A stretch of DNA of 64,000 nt from an uncultured Robiginitomaculum sp. GTDB taxonomy: Bacteria; Pseudomonadota; Alphaproteobacteria; Caulobacterales; Maricaulaceae. Positions 39,803 through 45,984 of the stretch are shown here, piece after piece; within the stretch, counting starts at the first letter, position 1; each line of letters opens with the position of its first letter. The notes beneath the pieces are model-generated. The model saw only the letters and a list, made by a program, of their open reading frames with translations. It was not told the DNA's origin and did not search any database. The stretch is from assembly GCA_938015875.1 (NCBI GenBank), contig CALLXE010000006.1:1-64000 (forward strand), read 5' to 3'. Both the position numbers and the translations under genes were made by a program.

Positions 39803-41038
39803 ATGCGCCGTTTTTTCACGCTCTCTACAGCCGTTTTAGCCCTCACTGCCTGCACGGGCGAGCCTCGCGATTTTAAAGCACCGGACGCCCCTGTCGGGGA
39901 CAGCGTGCATGAACGGGTTCTGACCCTTGATACCCATATTGATATTCCGCTCGATTATATGGACGCGGTCAATCCGAAATTTGAGACGGCCCTGCAGGTG
40001 GATATTCCCAAACTGCGCGCCGGTCATTTAGACAGCGGGTTTTGGATTATCTACACACCGCAAGGGGATTTAACGCCGGCCGGTTATGCCACCGCCCTTA
40101 AAATTGCCGATACCCGCTACCGCGCCATATTGAATTTGGCGACCGGTATTCCCGAAGATATTGAACTTGCGACGACGGCGTCAGATGTGCGCAAAATCGT
40201 CAAGAGCGGCCGTTTGGCGGTCTTGATGGGGATGGAAAACGCCTATCCGCTGGGCGAGGATATTCGTAATGTGCCGATCTGGGCGCGGCGCGGCGTGCGC
40301 TATATGGGCATCACCCATTTCGGGCATAATCAATTTGGCGACAGCTCTAACCCCAATGACGCGCGCGATGACGGCCCGCGTTATGGCGGTTTGTCGACGC
40401 TCGGCAAACGCCTCATCGGAGAGCTTAATAAACATGGCGTTATGGTGGATGTGTCCCACGCCGGTAAAGCGACAATGATGCAGGCAGCCGATTTATCCGC
40501 CACACCGATCATCGCCTCCCACAGCGGGGCAAAAGCCATTGGCGACAGCGCTCGAAATTTGGATGATGAGCAGCTTTTGAAAATTAAAGCTGTCGGCGGC
40601 GTTGCACAAATGGTCGCGCTGGACGTTTACGTTAAACCGCTCAATACTGCTCAAGAGGCCTTTCGTGAAAATTTGCGCAAAGAGATGAGCCTTGAAACAT
40701 CAGAGGCCCGCGCCGCAATGAGCGCAAGCGCCCGCGCGCAATATGAAGCGCGCCTGAAAGGGATGTGGGATATAGAGCCGGCCGCGACTGTGGCTGATTT
40801 TGTCGATCATATCGACCACGCGGTAAAAATCGCCGGCATAGATCATGTCGGGATTGCGTCAGACTTTGACGGCGGCGGCGGGGTAAAGGGGTGGCAGAAT
40901 GCGAGCGAAACGCAGAATGTCACGCAAGAGCTGATCGCGCGCGGCTATTCCGAAGAAGACATTGCGAAAATTTGGAGCGGAAACCTGCTGCGGGTTTTGC
41001 AGCAGGTTGAAGATTACGCCAAATCAAAGCGCAAATAA
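39803..41038 (+). CDS. M19-family membrane dipeptidase, predicted lipoprotein
   Basis: The 411-residue protein has a signal peptide with LTAC (Cys at about 17) and an M19 (renal dipeptidase-type) TIM barrel: LDTHIDIPLD with the metal-binding HxD, the bridging Glu in GMENAYPL, VDVSHAG, ASHSGAKAI and IASDFDGGGG. It hydrolyses dipeptides, often D- or L-D-configured, at the cell envelope. It stands between dapD and the oxidase operon, converging with ctaG. Confidence 0.87.
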   Translation: MRRFFTLSTAVLALTACTGEPRDFKAPDAPVGDSVHERVLTLDTHIDIPLDYMDAVNPKFETALQVDIPKLRAGHLDSGFWIIYTPQGDLTPAGYATALKIADTRYRAILNLATGIPEDIELATTASDVRKIVKSGRLAVLMGMENAYPLGEDIRNVPIWARRGVRYMGITHFGHNQFGDSSNPNDARDDGPRYGGLSTLGKRLIGELNKHGVMVDVSHAGKATMMQAADLSATPIIASHSGAKAIGDSARNLDDEQLLKIKAVGGVAQMVALDVYVKPLNTAQEAFRENLRKEMSLETSEARAAMSASARAQYEARLKGMWDIEPAATVADFVDHIDHAVKIAGIDHVGIASDFDGGGGVKGWQNASETQNVTQELIARGYSEEDIAKIWSGNLLRVLQQVEDYAKSKRK

Positions 41039-41057
41039 ACCCGGCCGCAAGTCGGAG

Positions 41058-41672
41058 CTATTTCAGCGCCGCTTCTTTGATCGTACCGACCGGATTTTCT
41101 ACGGGAAAGAACGTGTAAGACAGGGTCACCGTTGTGACTTCATCAAGGCGTCTGTCCTCGAGCAATAACGGGTCGAGGAAAAAGATGACCGGAAACTCTG
41201 CGCTTTCGCCGGGCGCGAGAGTCTGCTCTGTGAAGCAAAAACACTCAAGCTTGGAGAAATACGGTCCGGCTTTGACCGGTGAGACATTAAAGGTCGAGGT
41301 GGCTACAATTGTTTCATCGGACCTATTGGTCGCCGTGTAGAACGCCAGATTATTCGCGCCGATATTGACGTCCATATACGGTTTTTCCGGCGTAAAATCC
41401 CACGCTAAATCTTTGGACGTGTTGGAATCAAATTGAACGCGAACCACGCGGTCTGACACATCGGATGTGTTCTCACTCGCGACTCGGGTTGTCCCGCCAT
41501 AGCCGGTTATTTTGCAAAACGTGTCGTAAAGCGGCTTTGACGCAAACCCAAGGCCCAGCATGGCAAAGGCCGTAACTGTCAACACGCCGAGGGTTTTGCG
41601 GTTGGACGCAGATTTCTTCTGCGCGTTTAAAGCTTCACTTATCTCGGCATCGATGGACTCGGGATCGGTCAC
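41058..41672 (-). CDS. ctaG: Cytochrome c oxidase assembly protein CtaG (Cox11)
   Basis: The 204-residue protein has one membrane helix (about 26-48) and a periplasmic immunoglobulin-like domain with the copper-binding CFCF motif, followed by EFPVIFFLDP. It delivers copper to the CuB site of subunit I. It appears to start with GTG, which overlaps the TGA of the preceding small gene, implying translational coupling. It is the last gene of the cluster; ctaE (subunit III), which usually follows, is absent. Confidence 0.93.
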   Translation of the reverse strand: MTDPESIDAEISEALNAQKKSASNRKTLGVLTVTAFAMLGLGFASKPLYDTFCKITGYGGTTRVASENTSDVSDRVVRVQFDSNTSKDLAWDFTPEKPYMDVNIGANNLAFYTATNRSDETIVATSTFNVSPVKAGPYFSKLECFCFTEQTLAPGESAEFPVIFFLDPLLLEDRRLDEVTTVTLSYTFFPVENPVGTIKEAALK

Positions 41673-41851: not shown

Positions 41852-42820
41852 CTAGCTAAAGCTGCGGATCAGGGCCTCTGCGCTCAGCGCGCCAAACATG
41901 GCGAACAGATATATAATCGAAAACGCAAACAAATTTCGCGCGGCGCGGTCCCCCATTGTAACATCATATAGGCCCGCTTCATCTGCGGCATCGGCGCGCT
42001 CTCCTGCGCGAGATTGCCACACTTTATAGGCTAAAAACATGAATGTCAGATTCAGCACAAGGGCGACGAGCATATATAAATATCCGCCCATGCCCGTCAC
42101 AACCGGGCCGATGCAGGTCACGGCTAAAATTACCGCGTAGACAAAAATCTGTAGCCGCGTTGACTTCGCGCCTTTTACATTGGGCATCATCGGAATACCG
42201 GCCTTATGATAATCGCCGGTTTTATATAATGCGAGCGCCCAGAAATGGGGCGGGGTCCACATGAAAATAATCAGAAATAACAGCGTGCTGTCGATGGTAA
42301 TATCGCCGCTCGCTGCTGCCCAGCCGACCATAGGCGGGAAGGCTCCGGCCGCGCCGCCGATAACAATGTTTTGCGGCGTGCTTCGCTTTAGCCACATAGT
42401 GTAAACCACGGCGTAAAAGAAGATTGTAAACGCCAAAAGTCCGGCCGCCACATAATTGGAGGCTATCGCAAGACCCAGCACGGACAGCGCCGACAGGATA
42501 ATCCCAAAGCCAAGCGCGCTGCTGCGCTCCATTTTACCGGCGGGCAGGGGGCGGGTTTTCGTGCGCGACATCAGGGCGTCCGTATCGGCCTCGTACCACA
42601 TATTCAGCGCCGCAGACGCGCCCGCGCCAACGGCGATGCACAGAATAGACGCAGCGGCTAAAAACAGGTTCATTTCCCCCGGCGCGCAGACAAGCCCGGC
42701 CCAAGCCGTAAACACGACAAGCGTCATGACGCGCGGCTTCATCAGGGCGTAGAAATCGCGGGGTTCAGCCAGGCTAAGTCCGGGCGGGTTATACGGTTTG
42801 TCGGCTGCGGTATCGGTCAT
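41852..42820 (-). CDS. ctaB: Protoheme IX farnesyltransferase
   Basis: The 322-residue protein is a UbiA-type prenyltransferase with about nine helices. The first Asp-rich site is NMWYEADTDALMSRTKTRPL, and a second polar loop follows FMWTPPHFW. It makes haem O from haem B and farnesyl diphosphate, the precursor of haem A for subunit I. Its ATG overlaps the TGA of the CoxI-like gene upstream (ATGA), so the two are translationally coupled. Confidence 0.94.
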   Translation of the reverse strand: MTDTAADKPYNPPGLSLAEPRDFYALMKPRVMTLVVFTAWAGLVCAPGEMNLFLAAASILCIAVGAGASAALNMWYEADTDALMSRTKTRPLPAGKMERSSALGFGIILSALSVLGLAIASNYVAAGLLAFTIFFYAVVYTMWLKRSTPQNIVIGGAAGAFPPMVGWAAASGDITIDSTLLFLIIFMWTPPHFWALALYKTGDYHKAGIPMMPNVKGAKSTRLQIFVYAVILAVTCIGPVVTGMGGYLYMLVALVLNLTFMFLAYKVWQSRAGERADAADEAGLYDVTMGDRAARNLFAFSIIYLFAMFGALSAEALIRSFS

Positions 42821-43506
42821 TCAAATGTGCTCGCAATAGAATTTTGTGCCTTATGCGGGACGGGGCGCTTTCGGACAAGGGCTTCTATGATGAGGATAAC
42901 AAATGTCGCAAGGGAAAGGGCGATAAGGACTGCCCCAACTACGGAGATTACATTGACCGCTGAAAACACGTCCGCGTAGCGGCGCGGATTAAGCTTAAAG
43001 CTAACATAAACTTGCGGGAGCAGCATTGCATTTAGGCCTATGAAATATATCCAAAAATGCAAGCAGGCTAAAACCTTACTGTAGCCAAAGCGAAAATAGC
43101 GCATCATCAGGATTAAGGCTGCGGGGAAGATAGCGAAGCTTGCAACGATGAATATGGCGGATTGATAGTGTGCTGTCGTTACATATGCATCACTGAAAAA
43201 CGCGTTCGAAAGTTGGGCTTTTAAAATTTCTGCGTAAATAAGACTTACCGCAGCATATATTAAGCCGCCGTAAAACCAGAGGCCGGTGATACCGCGCAAG
43301 TGCCCGAATTTCTTGATTAGCAAATAGGTTATTGGCACGAAGACGATGAGGGCGAGAGGAATGAAAACTTCCGGATGCCCAAAGAACCAAAGCACGTGCT
43401 GCACTTCCGCAGGCGGGGGGCTCTCGCATCCCGCCCCTAAAACAACCAAAGAAAAAGCCGCCGCTCCGAGAGCGACGGCTTTTCTTATTTTAAAATCAGC
43501 TGCCAT
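42817..43506 (-). CDS. Short CoxI-derived membrane protein of unknown function
   Basis: The 229-residue protein has a signal-like helix (about 10-26) ending in GAGC and a Pro-rich linker. Segments that align with subunit I follow: [13 protein letters not shown] matches helix VI, 72-94 helix VII, 106-145 helix X, and 148-213 helices XI-XII, with LHFWIYFIGLN and NPRRYADV. Helices I-V and VIII-IX are missing. H44 and E46 match CtaD H262 and E264, but the cross-linked Tyr266 is F48. H113 matches the haem a3 ligand H397; the haem a ligand H399 is Q115; the CuB pair H311/H312 is not conserved. It therefore cannot be a complete haem-copper oxidase. The frame is intact, lies 24 bases after ctaD and overlaps ctaB by four bases. 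A role in oxidase assembly or regulation is inference. Confidence 0.8.
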   Translation of the reverse strand: MAADFKIRKAVALGAAAFSLVVLGAGCESPPPAEVQHVLWFFGHPEVFIPLALIVFVPITYLLIKKFGHLRGITGLWFYGGLIYAAVSLIYAEILKAQLSNAFFSDAYVTTAHYQSAIFIVASFAIFPAALILMMRYFRFGYSKVLACLHFWIYFIGLNAMLLPQVYVSFKLNPRRYADVFSAVNVISVVGAVLIALSLATFVILIIEALVRKRPVPHKAQNSIASTFE

Positions 43507-43530: not shown

Positions 43531-45138
43531 TTACTTCACGCGCGGCAATGTGTTGAACTGGTGATATGGCGGCGGAGAGGACAGTGTCCATTCCAGCGTC
43601 GTTGCGCCTTCGCCCCAGTAATTATCAGCCGCCGGACGGCGTACAATAAAGGCCTCTGCCATCATCACGAAGAAGGCGATAACGCCGGCCAGTGTGATAA
43701 ATGCGCCGTAAGTTGAGATCTCGTTATAGGTCGCAAACTCAACAGGGTAATCGATGTAACGGCGCGGCATGCCCTGCATTCCGAGGAAATGCTGCGGGAA
43801 GAACACAACGTTCACGCCGACGAAGAACAGCCAGAAATGAATCTGCGCAAGAATATTATTATACATCACGCCGAAGATCTTACCGAACCAGTAATAGAAG
43901 CCGCAGAACAGGCCAAACACGGCGCCCAGTGACAGCACGTAATGGAAATGGGCGACAACGTAATAGGTGTCGTGAAGCGCCACATCAATCGCCGGCATAG
44001 ACAGGACAACGCCGGTCACGCCGCCGATAACGAACAGGAAGATAAAGGCAATCGCCCAAAGCATGGGGATTTCAAAGCGAATAGAGCCGCCCCACATGGT
44101 CGCGAGCCATGAGAAGATTTTAATGCCGGTCGGCACCGCAATCACCAATGTCGCCACCATGAAGTAAAGCTTCAGGTCAACGTCCATGCCCACTGTGTAC
44201 ATGTGATGGGCCCAGACAACGAAGCCAACGACGCCGATGGCGACCATGGCATAGGCCATGCCGAGATAACCGAAAATCGGCTTTTTGGAAAACGTTGAAA
44301 CAACATGAGAGACAATGCCGAAAGCCGGCAGGATCATGATGTAAACTTCAGGATGTCCGAAGAACCAGAACAAATGCTGGAACATTTCCGGGTCACCGCC
44401 CATGGCCGGGTTAAAGAAACCCGTGCCGGCGTTACGGTCAAAGAAAAGCATGAACAAAGCCGCTGCCAAAACCGGCAGAGCCAAAAGCAGCAGGAAGGCC
44501 GTCACAAGGATAGACCAGGCAAACAAAGGCATTTTGTGCATGGTCATGCCCGGTGCGCGCATGTTCAAAATGGTCGTAATGAAGTTAATCGCGCCAAAGA
44601 TAGAGGCAAAACCGGCCGCCAGAAGACCCATAATAATCAGGTCAAAGGCGGGGCCTTGATGCCCGGAGGTCGAGAGCGGCGGGTACATAACCCAGCCCCC
44701 GCCAAATCCGTTACCGCTGGAGGAGCCTTGGACAAAGAAACTGGAGACCAGCAGTACAAATGCAACAGGCAAAAGCCAGAATGACAAATTGTTAAGTCGC
44801 GGGAACGCCATATCAGGCGCGCCGATCATCAAGGGCCCGAACCAGTTCCCGAAACCCCCGATCAGGGCGGGCATGACCATAAAGAAGATCATGATCAGGC
44901 CGTGCATAGAGGTAAACACAAGATAGGTGTGCTCTGAGGCAAAAATTTGAATGCCCGGCTCCTTAAGCTCAAGGCGCATCATGAACGACAAAAATCCGCC
45001 TAAAAGACCGGAGGCCATGCCGAACCACAGATACAGCGTACCGATATCCTTATGGTTGGTGGAGAGGAACCAGCGTTTGAAAAACGTCGGCTTGTCGTTG
45101 TGGGCGTGGTCGTCGCCGTCACCGTAAATCGCTACCAT
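43531..45138 (-). CDS. ctaD: Cytochrome c oxidase subunit I (aa3-type)
   Basis: The 535-residue protein has twelve membrane helices and every expected ligand: H79 and H399 for haem a, H397 for haem a3, and H262, H311 and H312 for CuB. Y266 is in place for the His-Tyr cross-link, and E264 marks a proton channel. It reduces oxygen to water and pumps protons. It starts three bases after ctaC and heads a run of assembly genes. Confidence 0.97.
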
Positions 45139-45141
45139 GAC

Positions 45142-45984
45142 TTATTCTCCGGTCTGTGTGTTGCGGGCTTCGGTTGTGATGCCCTCATTTTTTACATATT
45201 CAGGGTTCTTCTCAAGAACCCATGCGTCAAATTCGGCCTGCGGCAGAACGCGAACTTCAATCGGCATGTTGTAGTGAAGCTGACCACAGACTTCGGAGCA
45301 CTGTCCGTAATATGTCCCCGGCTCACGGACTTCAAACCACGTTTCATTCAGGCGTCCCGGAACCGCGTCGATTTTCACGCCGAATGCAGGAACGGCAAAT
45401 GCGTGAAGAACGTCAGAGGCGGTTACGATAACCCGGATTTTCTTGCCGGCAGGAACAACCATCGGCTCGGTAACGGCCAGAAGGCCCGGCAGGTTTTTCG
45501 CTGCGGCTTCTTCTTTGGTCAGTGGGGCTGAGTTAAATTCAAAGCCGCCATGGTCAGGGTAAACATAATCCCAATTCCACTGATTGCCGACGGCCTTAAC
45601 AGTCATGTCCGGCTCAGGGATTGTGTCGAGATAGTAAAGCGGGCGGGTCGCCACAGCGATGAGGAACAGAACGATCATCACGGGCGCCGCTGTCCAGACA
45701 ACCTCAAGCAGCGTGTTATGGCTGGTCTTGGACGGGACAGGATTGGCTTTTTCGTTAAAACGAATGAAGATGAAGAGCATCAGACCCATCACCAAAATAA
45801 CAATGGCGGTAATGATAACAAATGCAATTGTGTGCAGGTTCGTCACCATGTCCATTTGCGGCGTAGCGGATTCCTGAAACGTGATTGATTTGTCAGTCGG
45901 CAGGCCAACGGCTCCCGCCGCGCCGGTCAACGCCGCGAGCAATGTCGCGCCCCCAAGCAGTCCTGTAATACGTGATTTGCGCAT
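45142..45984 (-). CDS. ctaC: Cytochrome c oxidase subunit II
   Basis: The 280-residue protein has a signal peptide (about 1-27), two membrane helices (about 48-75 and 92-113) and a periplasmic cupredoxin domain. The CuA ligands are H194, C229, C233, H237 and M240 in QCSEVCGQLHYNM, and the aromatic patch NQWNWDY is present. It takes electrons from cytochrome c. No fused haem c domain follows. It is the first gene of the cluster and has a hairpin in its leader. Confidence 0.97.
   Translation of the reverse strand: MRKSRITGLLGGATLLAALTGAAGAVGLPTDKSITFQESATPQMDMVTNLHTIAFVIITAIVILVMGLMLFIFIRFNEKANPVPSKTSHNTLLEVVWTAAPVMIVLFLIAVATRPLYYLDTIPEPDMTVKAVGNQWNWDYVYPDHGGFEFNSAPLTKEEAAAKNLPGLLAVTEPMVVPAGKKIRVIVTASDVLHAFAVPAFGVKIDAVPGRLNETWFEVREPGTYYGQCSEVCGQLHYNMPIEVRVLPQAEFDAWVLEKNPEYVKNEGITTEARNTQTGE

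Follow-up and report, generated by a model that had tools for sequence, protein, structure and literature searches.

A miniature, non-catalytic CoxI relative between ctaD and ctaB in one alphaproteobacterial genus, with a lipoprotein-like signal that doubles as an RNA hairpin

Introduction

The DNA analysed here, a 64,000 nt stretch of contig CALLXE010000006.1 from an uncultured Robiginitomaculum sp. (hereafter the window), contains an aa3 oxidase gene cluster in which a short frame resembling cytochrome oxidase subunit I (CoxI) lies between the gene for the full-length subunit and that for haem O synthase. This raises the question of whether the short frame, here called mini-CoxI, is a remnant of ctaD or a protein in its own right, and, in the latter case, what it could do beside the complete subunit.

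A short COX1-like gene inside the oxidase cluster

The window's genome is designated G000, and the five other genomes of the same genus that were examined G001 to G005. In the window the genes are arranged in the order ctaC-ctaD-mini-ctaB-ctaG, as follows:

45142–45984, minus strand: ctaC, subunit II
43531–45138, minus strand: ctaD, full-length CoxI
42817–43506, minus strand: mini-CoxI gene, 229 codons plus stop (open frame; Pfam COX1 match; orthologues in G004, G002 and G005; omega below 1)
42817–42820, minus strand: ATGA overlap of the mini-CoxI stop and the ctaB start, also found in G002 and G005 and absent from G004
41852–42820, minus strand: ctaB, haem O synthase
41058–41672, minus strand: ctaG, Cox11-type copper chaperone

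The intact frame that a preliminary description had placed between ctaD and ctaB was confirmed, running on the minus strand from 43506 to 42817, stop included. The mini-CoxI start codon lies 12–25 nt past the ctaD stop. The ATGA coupling to ctaB proposed in the same description holds for the window, G002 and G005, that is, for three of the four known copies, but not for G004.

Replacement of subunit III or SURF1 by mini-CoxI was considered and rejected, because both occur in the carriers G002, G004 and G005 as well as in G001 (each search matched seven of nine genomes); neither was found in the incomplete genomes G000 and G003. As to gene arrangement, ctaE and SURF1 of G004 are on a different contig from ctaD-ctaB (contigs C14 and C64), a gene on the opposite strand (39803–41058) comes after ctaG in the window, and G001, G002 and G005 have the whole set on one contig; the oxidase operon seems to be split in the line of G000 and G004.

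Relationship to CoxI and loss of the catalytic site

Mini-CoxI matched the Pfam family COX1 (PF00115) with an E value of 8.1e-16 (58.3 bits, cut-off 34.8), which bears out the kinship with CoxI noticed earlier, and matched no other Pfam family even at E values up to 10, so that the search for a better-fitting family returned COX1 alone. The cut-off was exceeded by three of the four copies, the remaining one (P0004) reaching 26.8 bits against 34.8, and the score of the window's copy against the NCBIfam CtaD model TIGR02891 was 50.5 bits, with a cut-off of 670.75. The homologous segments, with helix numbers and ligand roles as in CoxI, are:

43306–43413, minus strand: segment homologous to CoxI helix VI, residues 32–67
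42871–43290, minus strand: segment homologous to CoxI helices IX–XII, residues 73–212

The match to solved oxidases likewise falls into two parts, residues 32 to about 70 (helix VI) and 75–214 (helices IX–XII), and the Pfam alignment places residues 76–194 on profile positions 309–436, which correspond to helices IX–XII. Helices I–V and VII–VIII are missing from a protein of 229 residues, against 535 in CtaD, and five membrane spans are retained versus the twelve core helices of catalytic subunit I. The preliminary description had listed helices VI, VII and X–XII as kept and I–V and VIII–IX as gone; helices VI and X–XII are indeed kept and I–V and VIII missing, but the second retained helix is IX and not VII, as given by the Pfam, solved-oxidase and CtaD alignments. 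The CuB His pair, said to be unconserved, is indeed not there; since the segment with helices VII–VIII is missing, the pair is absent with it, not mutated. The G002 orthologue has GVDVALHDSYYLVVHAQF at the place of an 18-residue CtaD stretch.

The remaining ligand positions in the window's copy are as described before: the Glu, one CuB-type His and the haem a3-type His are kept, the haem a His is replaced by Gln and the cross-link Tyr by Phe. In the order G000, G004, G002, G005, the CuB-type position holds H, H, H and R, the haem a3-type position H, H, H and S, the haem a position in helix X Q, R, Q and L, and the cross-link position F, F, Y and F. Therefore, no copy has more than two of the six ligand His and only one has the Tyr, while the Glu (of GHPE) is common to all four and the CuB-type and haem a3-type His to three. 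Invariant in the four copies are QH..WF, the GHPE Glu, D-x-Y ahead of the haem a3 position, P-x-RY in the loop between XI and XII and, where helix XII ends, EA and RP; these are mostly general CoxI residues. No copy is able to form the oxidase active site and mini-CoxI cannot be an oxidase; additionally, the loss of both the CuB-type and the haem a3-type His in G005 disfavours an obligatory metal or haem site. The roles suggested in the preliminary description, scaffolding haem or copper insertion or modulating the oxidase, are candidate roles. An AlphaFold model (mean pLDDT 69.9, pTM 0.63) matched oxidases in the PDB (best E value 1.4e-4), although model and matches are no independent proof of the fold, since the input alignment held CtaD rows.

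Distribution and history

A search of 61 genomes, comprising the window's own and 60 relatives, found orthologues in the ctaD-ctaB slot of G004 (52% identity), G002 (34%) and G005 (31%; completeness 100, 5 contigs). All carriers belong to the genus of the window, where mini-CoxI occurs in four of the six genomes examined, always in this slot and with 228–255 residues. A profile built from the four copies and run on 137 genomes of the family, some of them incomplete, retrieved these copies with E values of 3.5e-101 to 4.9e-118, and all other matches were at 7.2e-38 or weaker; in none of the other 131 genomes, again including incomplete ones, was there a match in the score range of the four copies. 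The weaker matches were mostly frames of 527–581 residues, corresponding to ordinary CtaD, with some shorter frames in G014 (399 residues), G007 (427) and G143 (111). Four more of these shorter frames, in G023, G097, G016 and G025, were examined as candidates and turned out to be pieces of ordinary CtaD, 69–81% identical to the window's CtaD. In G016 (L109, contig C34), ctaD consists of two adjoining frames of 346 and 191 residues, perhaps from a frameshift in the gene or in the assembly.

At E values of 1e-42 or better, the profile matched two of 398 genomes in a sample of the order, both from this genus, and one of 385 in a sample of the class, which was the window's own. Other short COX1 frames were likewise discarded, being due to a run of N inside ctaD (G626) or to contig ends (G633 and G672); among the COX1 matches listed for the class there were also frames of 282 residues in G517 and of 377 residues, with two TGA, in G789. 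The presence in a conserved slot that the preliminary description proposed to look for thus holds for four genomes of the genus, but G001 lacks the gene and no copy turned up in the rest of the family. G001, which is 93% complete, has ctaD and ctaB separated by a 126-base gap with no mini-CoxI gene, whereas G003 (67% complete) gave no match whatever and is uninformative as to presence.

In a tree of CtaD stretches, the genus fell among sequences that carry the names Hellea and Algimonas and the label Robiginitomaculaceae. A second tree, built from CtaD, CtaB, CtaG and CtaC and with G002 represented by 45% of the columns, grouped ((G000,G004),G001) against (G002,G005), each of the six inner branches being starred. 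The fewest events are needed if the gene was gained once, in the ancestor of the genus, and lost once, in G001. All four copies split off from CtaD with a support of 92/87, short of a star, and on very long branches, so that their attachment point on the CtaD tree was not placed. In G002, the first 12 bases of mini-CoxI are the same as the start of ctaD in G000, G004 and G001, a weak hint that the start of mini-CoxI also derives from ctaD.

Rate of evolution and selection

Between G000 and G004, mini-CoxI is 52% identical, versus 96.6% for CtaD and 92.6% for CtaB, and its dN is about ten times that of CtaB and about 25 times that of CtaD. Pairwise codon models nevertheless gave omega values significantly lower than 1 for each of four pairs: 0.220 for G000-G004 (2dL against omega 1 = 56.4), 0.386 for G002-G005 (18.5), 0.163 for G000-G002 (35.9) and 0.226 for G004-G002 (37.5); with dS of 1.6–4.5, the absolute values are rough. 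The mature part, without the signal peptide described below, gave 0.180 for G000-G004 and 0.255 for G002-G005, whereas for the non-membrane subset of G000-G004 the estimate hit the boundary and could not be used. For comparison, omega was 0.03–0.09 for CtaB, CtaD, CtaG and CtaC in the pairs fitted, and neither CtaB nor CtaD evolves at an unusual rate in the carriers.

The four frames are intact at 49–59% nucleotide identity. In neutral simulations (2000 each), an open frame survived in 18 at 0.3 substitutions per site, in one at 0.6 and in none at 1.0; these simulations and the omega values below 1 led us to reject a pseudogene. The finding goes beyond chance, given three more intact copies in the ctaD-ctaB slot, omega below 1 and the lack of any open frame in the 2000 simulations at 1.0. 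Mini-CoxI is fast-evolving yet under purifying selection. The earlier proposal that selection maintains a non-catalytic CoxI relative is upheld by the same slot in four of six genomes, by omega below 1 and by the lack of a complete ligand set in any copy; likewise, the dN/dS comparison that it recommended returned purifying, not relaxed, selection in species pairs. The orthologues, a lipobox-like Cys and a hairpin under the signal peptide go beyond what had been described.

A lipoprotein-like signal and the hairpin beneath it

Two features share the first codons of the gene:

43426–43506, minus strand: lipoprotein-like signal peptide, residues 1–27, with the lipobox-like Cys codon at 43426–43428 (looser lipobox pattern)
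43452–43484, minus strand: terminator-like hairpin in the signal-peptide codons, with 15 pairs, a loop of 3 and a T-rich tail (from a scan, the z-score and the kept pairing)

The four copies open with a short basic segment and with small and hydrophobic residues, and carry a Cys at residue 22–27, the only Cys at a position common to all of them; five hydrophobic spans follow the signal in every copy. Lipobox patterns, strict and looser, and a scripted combined signal test were applied: three copies have a strict lipobox (LAAC, LAGC, LAGC), whereas the GAGC of the window fits only the looser pattern. Three of the four copies pass the combined test, as do five of the 127 window frames of at least 100 residues, mini-CoxI included; P0004, with a GTG start, fails, its first basic residue (Lys) being late. 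Only in G000 and G005 is the signal stretch hydrophobic enough to pass the 19-residue hydropathy threshold. Helix VI of CoxI enters the membrane from outside; a periplasmic N-terminus together with the loss of two helices would therefore keep the topology of CoxI, the in/out order being preserved because it is two helices (VII–VIII) that are removed. From these features, we infer that mini-CoxI may be lipidated and have a CoxI-like topology.

All four copies have, about 33–46 nt past the ctaD stop, a stem of 13–15 pairs followed by a T-rich tail in the first codons, and thus a GC-rich hairpin with a T-rich tract as in intrinsic terminators. Folding z-scores were -4.9 (G000), -7.2 (G004), -5.0 (G002) and -4.3 (G005), and G001, which lacks the gene, has a hairpin at the same place with a z-score of -6.5. 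In a gapless alignment of the four copies, 98.1% of the cells pair and both sides have changed in four of 13 pairs, whereas sliding the partner cuts pairing to 37–65%; shuffles scored as high in covariation 2 times in 500 and had as many double-changed pairs 55 times in 500. Pairing thus appears to be kept, partly by compensatory changes, on evidence from four sequences that is good but not overwhelming.

Using loose criteria and counting duplicates and carriers, hairpins occur within the first 160 nt past the ctaD stop in 55 of 143 alphaproteobacterial rows; with stricter criteria, they occur in 18 of 125 distinct gene-less regions. Since hairpins also follow ctaD in other Alphaproteobacteria, this one probably predates the mini-CoxI gene, but such hairpins are not universal, with none seen after ctaD in G006 and G010, from the nearest genera in the trees; the scattered cases are possibly an operon attenuator or a 3′-end element. 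The 5′ arm of the hairpin codes for Arg-Lys in three copies and the T-tract for Phe, with Leu nearby. In an exploratory count with our own thresholds, a signal-like frame was present in 8 of the 18 gene-less hairpins versus 12% of single-base shuffles. For the signal region of G000-G004, total change was low (t 0.90 versus 3.13) and omega was 0.635 (23 codons), and for G002-G005 omega was 1.56 (22 codons), neither omega being different from 1; these rates, which come from a short stretch, would fit a constraint on the RNA.

Discussion

Degenerate relatives of CoxI next to ctaB have precedents. According to a passage in PMC10715153, which cites Matsutani 2014, Acetobacter has a degenerate ('deranged') COX1-like gene without any metal-binding residues, which is retained together with ctaB and whose product probably stabilises CtaB; for A. 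pasteurianus, PMC5158111 lists ctaB and ctaD under adjoining locus numbers. Our survey of the class found degenerate COX1-like genes immediately before ctaB in G469 (L174:1669-2982; 437 residues) and G600 (L175:1968-3299; 443 residues), which overlap ctaB if its first ATG is taken. In one alignment they keep both haem a His and have lost the CuB and haem a3 His, a pattern that is reversed in three of the four mini-CoxI copies; the omega of this pair ran to the boundary and was not usable. The COX1 search also retrieved large frames from these genomes (670 residues; 662 and 772 residues), whose length would fit quinol oxidases. Our guess is that G469 and G600 are bacteria such as Acetobacter, although the haem a His kept in their genes agree with that description only in part. 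Mini-CoxI is likewise a non-catalytic CoxI descendant directly before ctaB, but those genes are near full-length, with no lipoprotein signal seen, versus the 228–255 residues of mini-CoxI, which has a normal CtaD beside it. It seems, then, that a degenerate CoxI next to ctaB has been retained on at least two occasions, and in differing forms.

Mini-CoxI also differs from the other systems that it resembles. It adjoins ctaD and is homologous to CtaD, the A-type haem-copper oxidase subunit I, over helices VI and IX–XII, but it lacks helices I–V and VII–VIII and any complete haem or copper site and has a lipoprotein-type signal. Its predicted lipid anchor has parallels in the oxidase pathway, where passages of PMC9145763 describe components such as Bacillus subunit II and Sco as lipoproteins, yet these have periplasmic domains and mini-CoxI, descended from CoxI, spans the membrane five times. 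The hairpin shares with intrinsic terminators and attenuators the GC-rich stem, short loop, T-rich tail and placement after ctaD, but it sits inside an open reading frame and codes for a signal peptide.

We tentatively favour mini-CoxI being a lipid-anchored, non-catalytic CoxI derivative that assists, within the membrane, the assembly step involving CtaD and CtaB. The short gene would have arisen from a partial copy of ctaD placed behind the hairpin that follows ctaD; its product would be exported through the lipoprotein-type signal, trimmed to a periplasmic, N-terminal, lipid-bearing Cys, and would cross the membrane with CoxI helices VI, IX, X, XI and XII, its C-terminus inside as in CoxI. 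Made in step with CtaD and CtaB, it could offer a CoxI-like surface to CtaB, to new CtaD or to both during haem delivery and subunit folding. In Paracoccus, a passage of PMC5249081 has CtaG, and then Surf1, joining new subunit I before subunits II and III; by analogy, this is the stage at which a mini-CoxI partner would act. Partner and role are what we infer as the best explanation, because of the slot, the ATGA overlap in three of four copies, the membrane form, the selection, and the degenerate COX1-like genes before ctaB in G469, G600 and Acetobacter. Against it, G001 manages without mini-CoxI, the carriers' CtaB and CtaD evolve at ordinary rates, GAGC is outside the strict lipobox, the hydropathy of the signal is above threshold in G000 and G005 only, the overlap is missing in G004, the invariant residues are mostly those of CoxI in general, and a fast rate is equally expected of a dispensable protein.

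The position directly behind ctaD in the oxidase cluster, the membrane form of CoxI descent and the purifying selection would also suit a permanent, lipid-anchored accessory subunit of the mature aa3 oxidase that packs against CtaD or CtaC and adjusts stability or dimerisation; however, a fixed interface with the conserved CtaD should restrain the rate, whereas dN is far above that of CtaB and CtaD, and the gene was lost in G001, so we consider such a subunit unlikely. It is less probable that the main task is exerted in cis, with ribosomes that leave ctaD restarting, running through the hairpin, preventing termination and carrying translation on to ctaB, and the protein being secondary. The short distance between ctaD and the mini-CoxI start, the hairpin within the first codons of all four copies and the frequent ATGA overlap agree with this, but the mature protein is under purifying selection far from the hairpin (omega 0.18 and 0.26), a leader needs no five membrane helices, and G001 expresses ctaB somehow without the gene.

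The fast evolution, ligand loss and absence from G001 are what a functionless, slowly decaying ctaD duplicate might show; this we find improbable in view of four intact frames at such nucleotide divergence, of omega significantly below 1 in four pairs, and of the membrane spans and signal that have been kept. We would give equally little credit to a chaperone carrying haem or copper by means of the CuB-type His, the haem a3-type His and the Glu: both His are present in three copies and the Glu in four, but G005 has lost both His, no copy has a haem a His at helix X, and helix II is absent. An assembly or gene-calling artefact could be suspected from the state of the window's genome (completeness 67.68%, 68 contigs) and is scarcely conceivable, being refuted by the same-slot orthologues in G005, with its five contigs and completeness of 100, G004 and G002. 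A membrane assembly partner is therefore the likeliest single reading of the role, still short of being probable.

How the export signal arose can be framed with similar reserve. The A-rich 5′ arm of the hairpin would supply Arg-Lys, the GC stem small residues and the T-tract Phe-Leu-Leu, that is, a ready-made signal peptide. It is conceivable, if not yet probable, that the signal was born from an intrinsic-terminator hairpin, that a copy of the ctaD end behind this hairpin became an exported, lipid-anchored, five-helix CoxI derivative, and that the same bases still form an RNA hairpin opened by translation, tying together ctaD, mini-CoxI and ctaB. In the open-licence PMC literature we found no report of a terminator-derived signal peptide or of a CoxI-fragment lipoprotein.

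Mini-CoxI is a lineage-specific, selected, non-catalytic CoxI derivative whose lipoprotein-like signal doubles as an RNA hairpin. It shows a core respiratory subunit turned into a miniature, non-catalytic relative with new targeting, traceable within one genus. Taken with the degenerate COX1-like genes that precede ctaB in other bacteria, it points to a possible need of CtaB for a CoxI-like partner; such a need would open the hand-over of haem O to testing. Likewise, a hairpin that is both an RNA element and the code for a signal peptide offers a concrete and testable route for the origin of signal peptides and, if true, terminator hairpins would be a seedbed for signal peptides generally.
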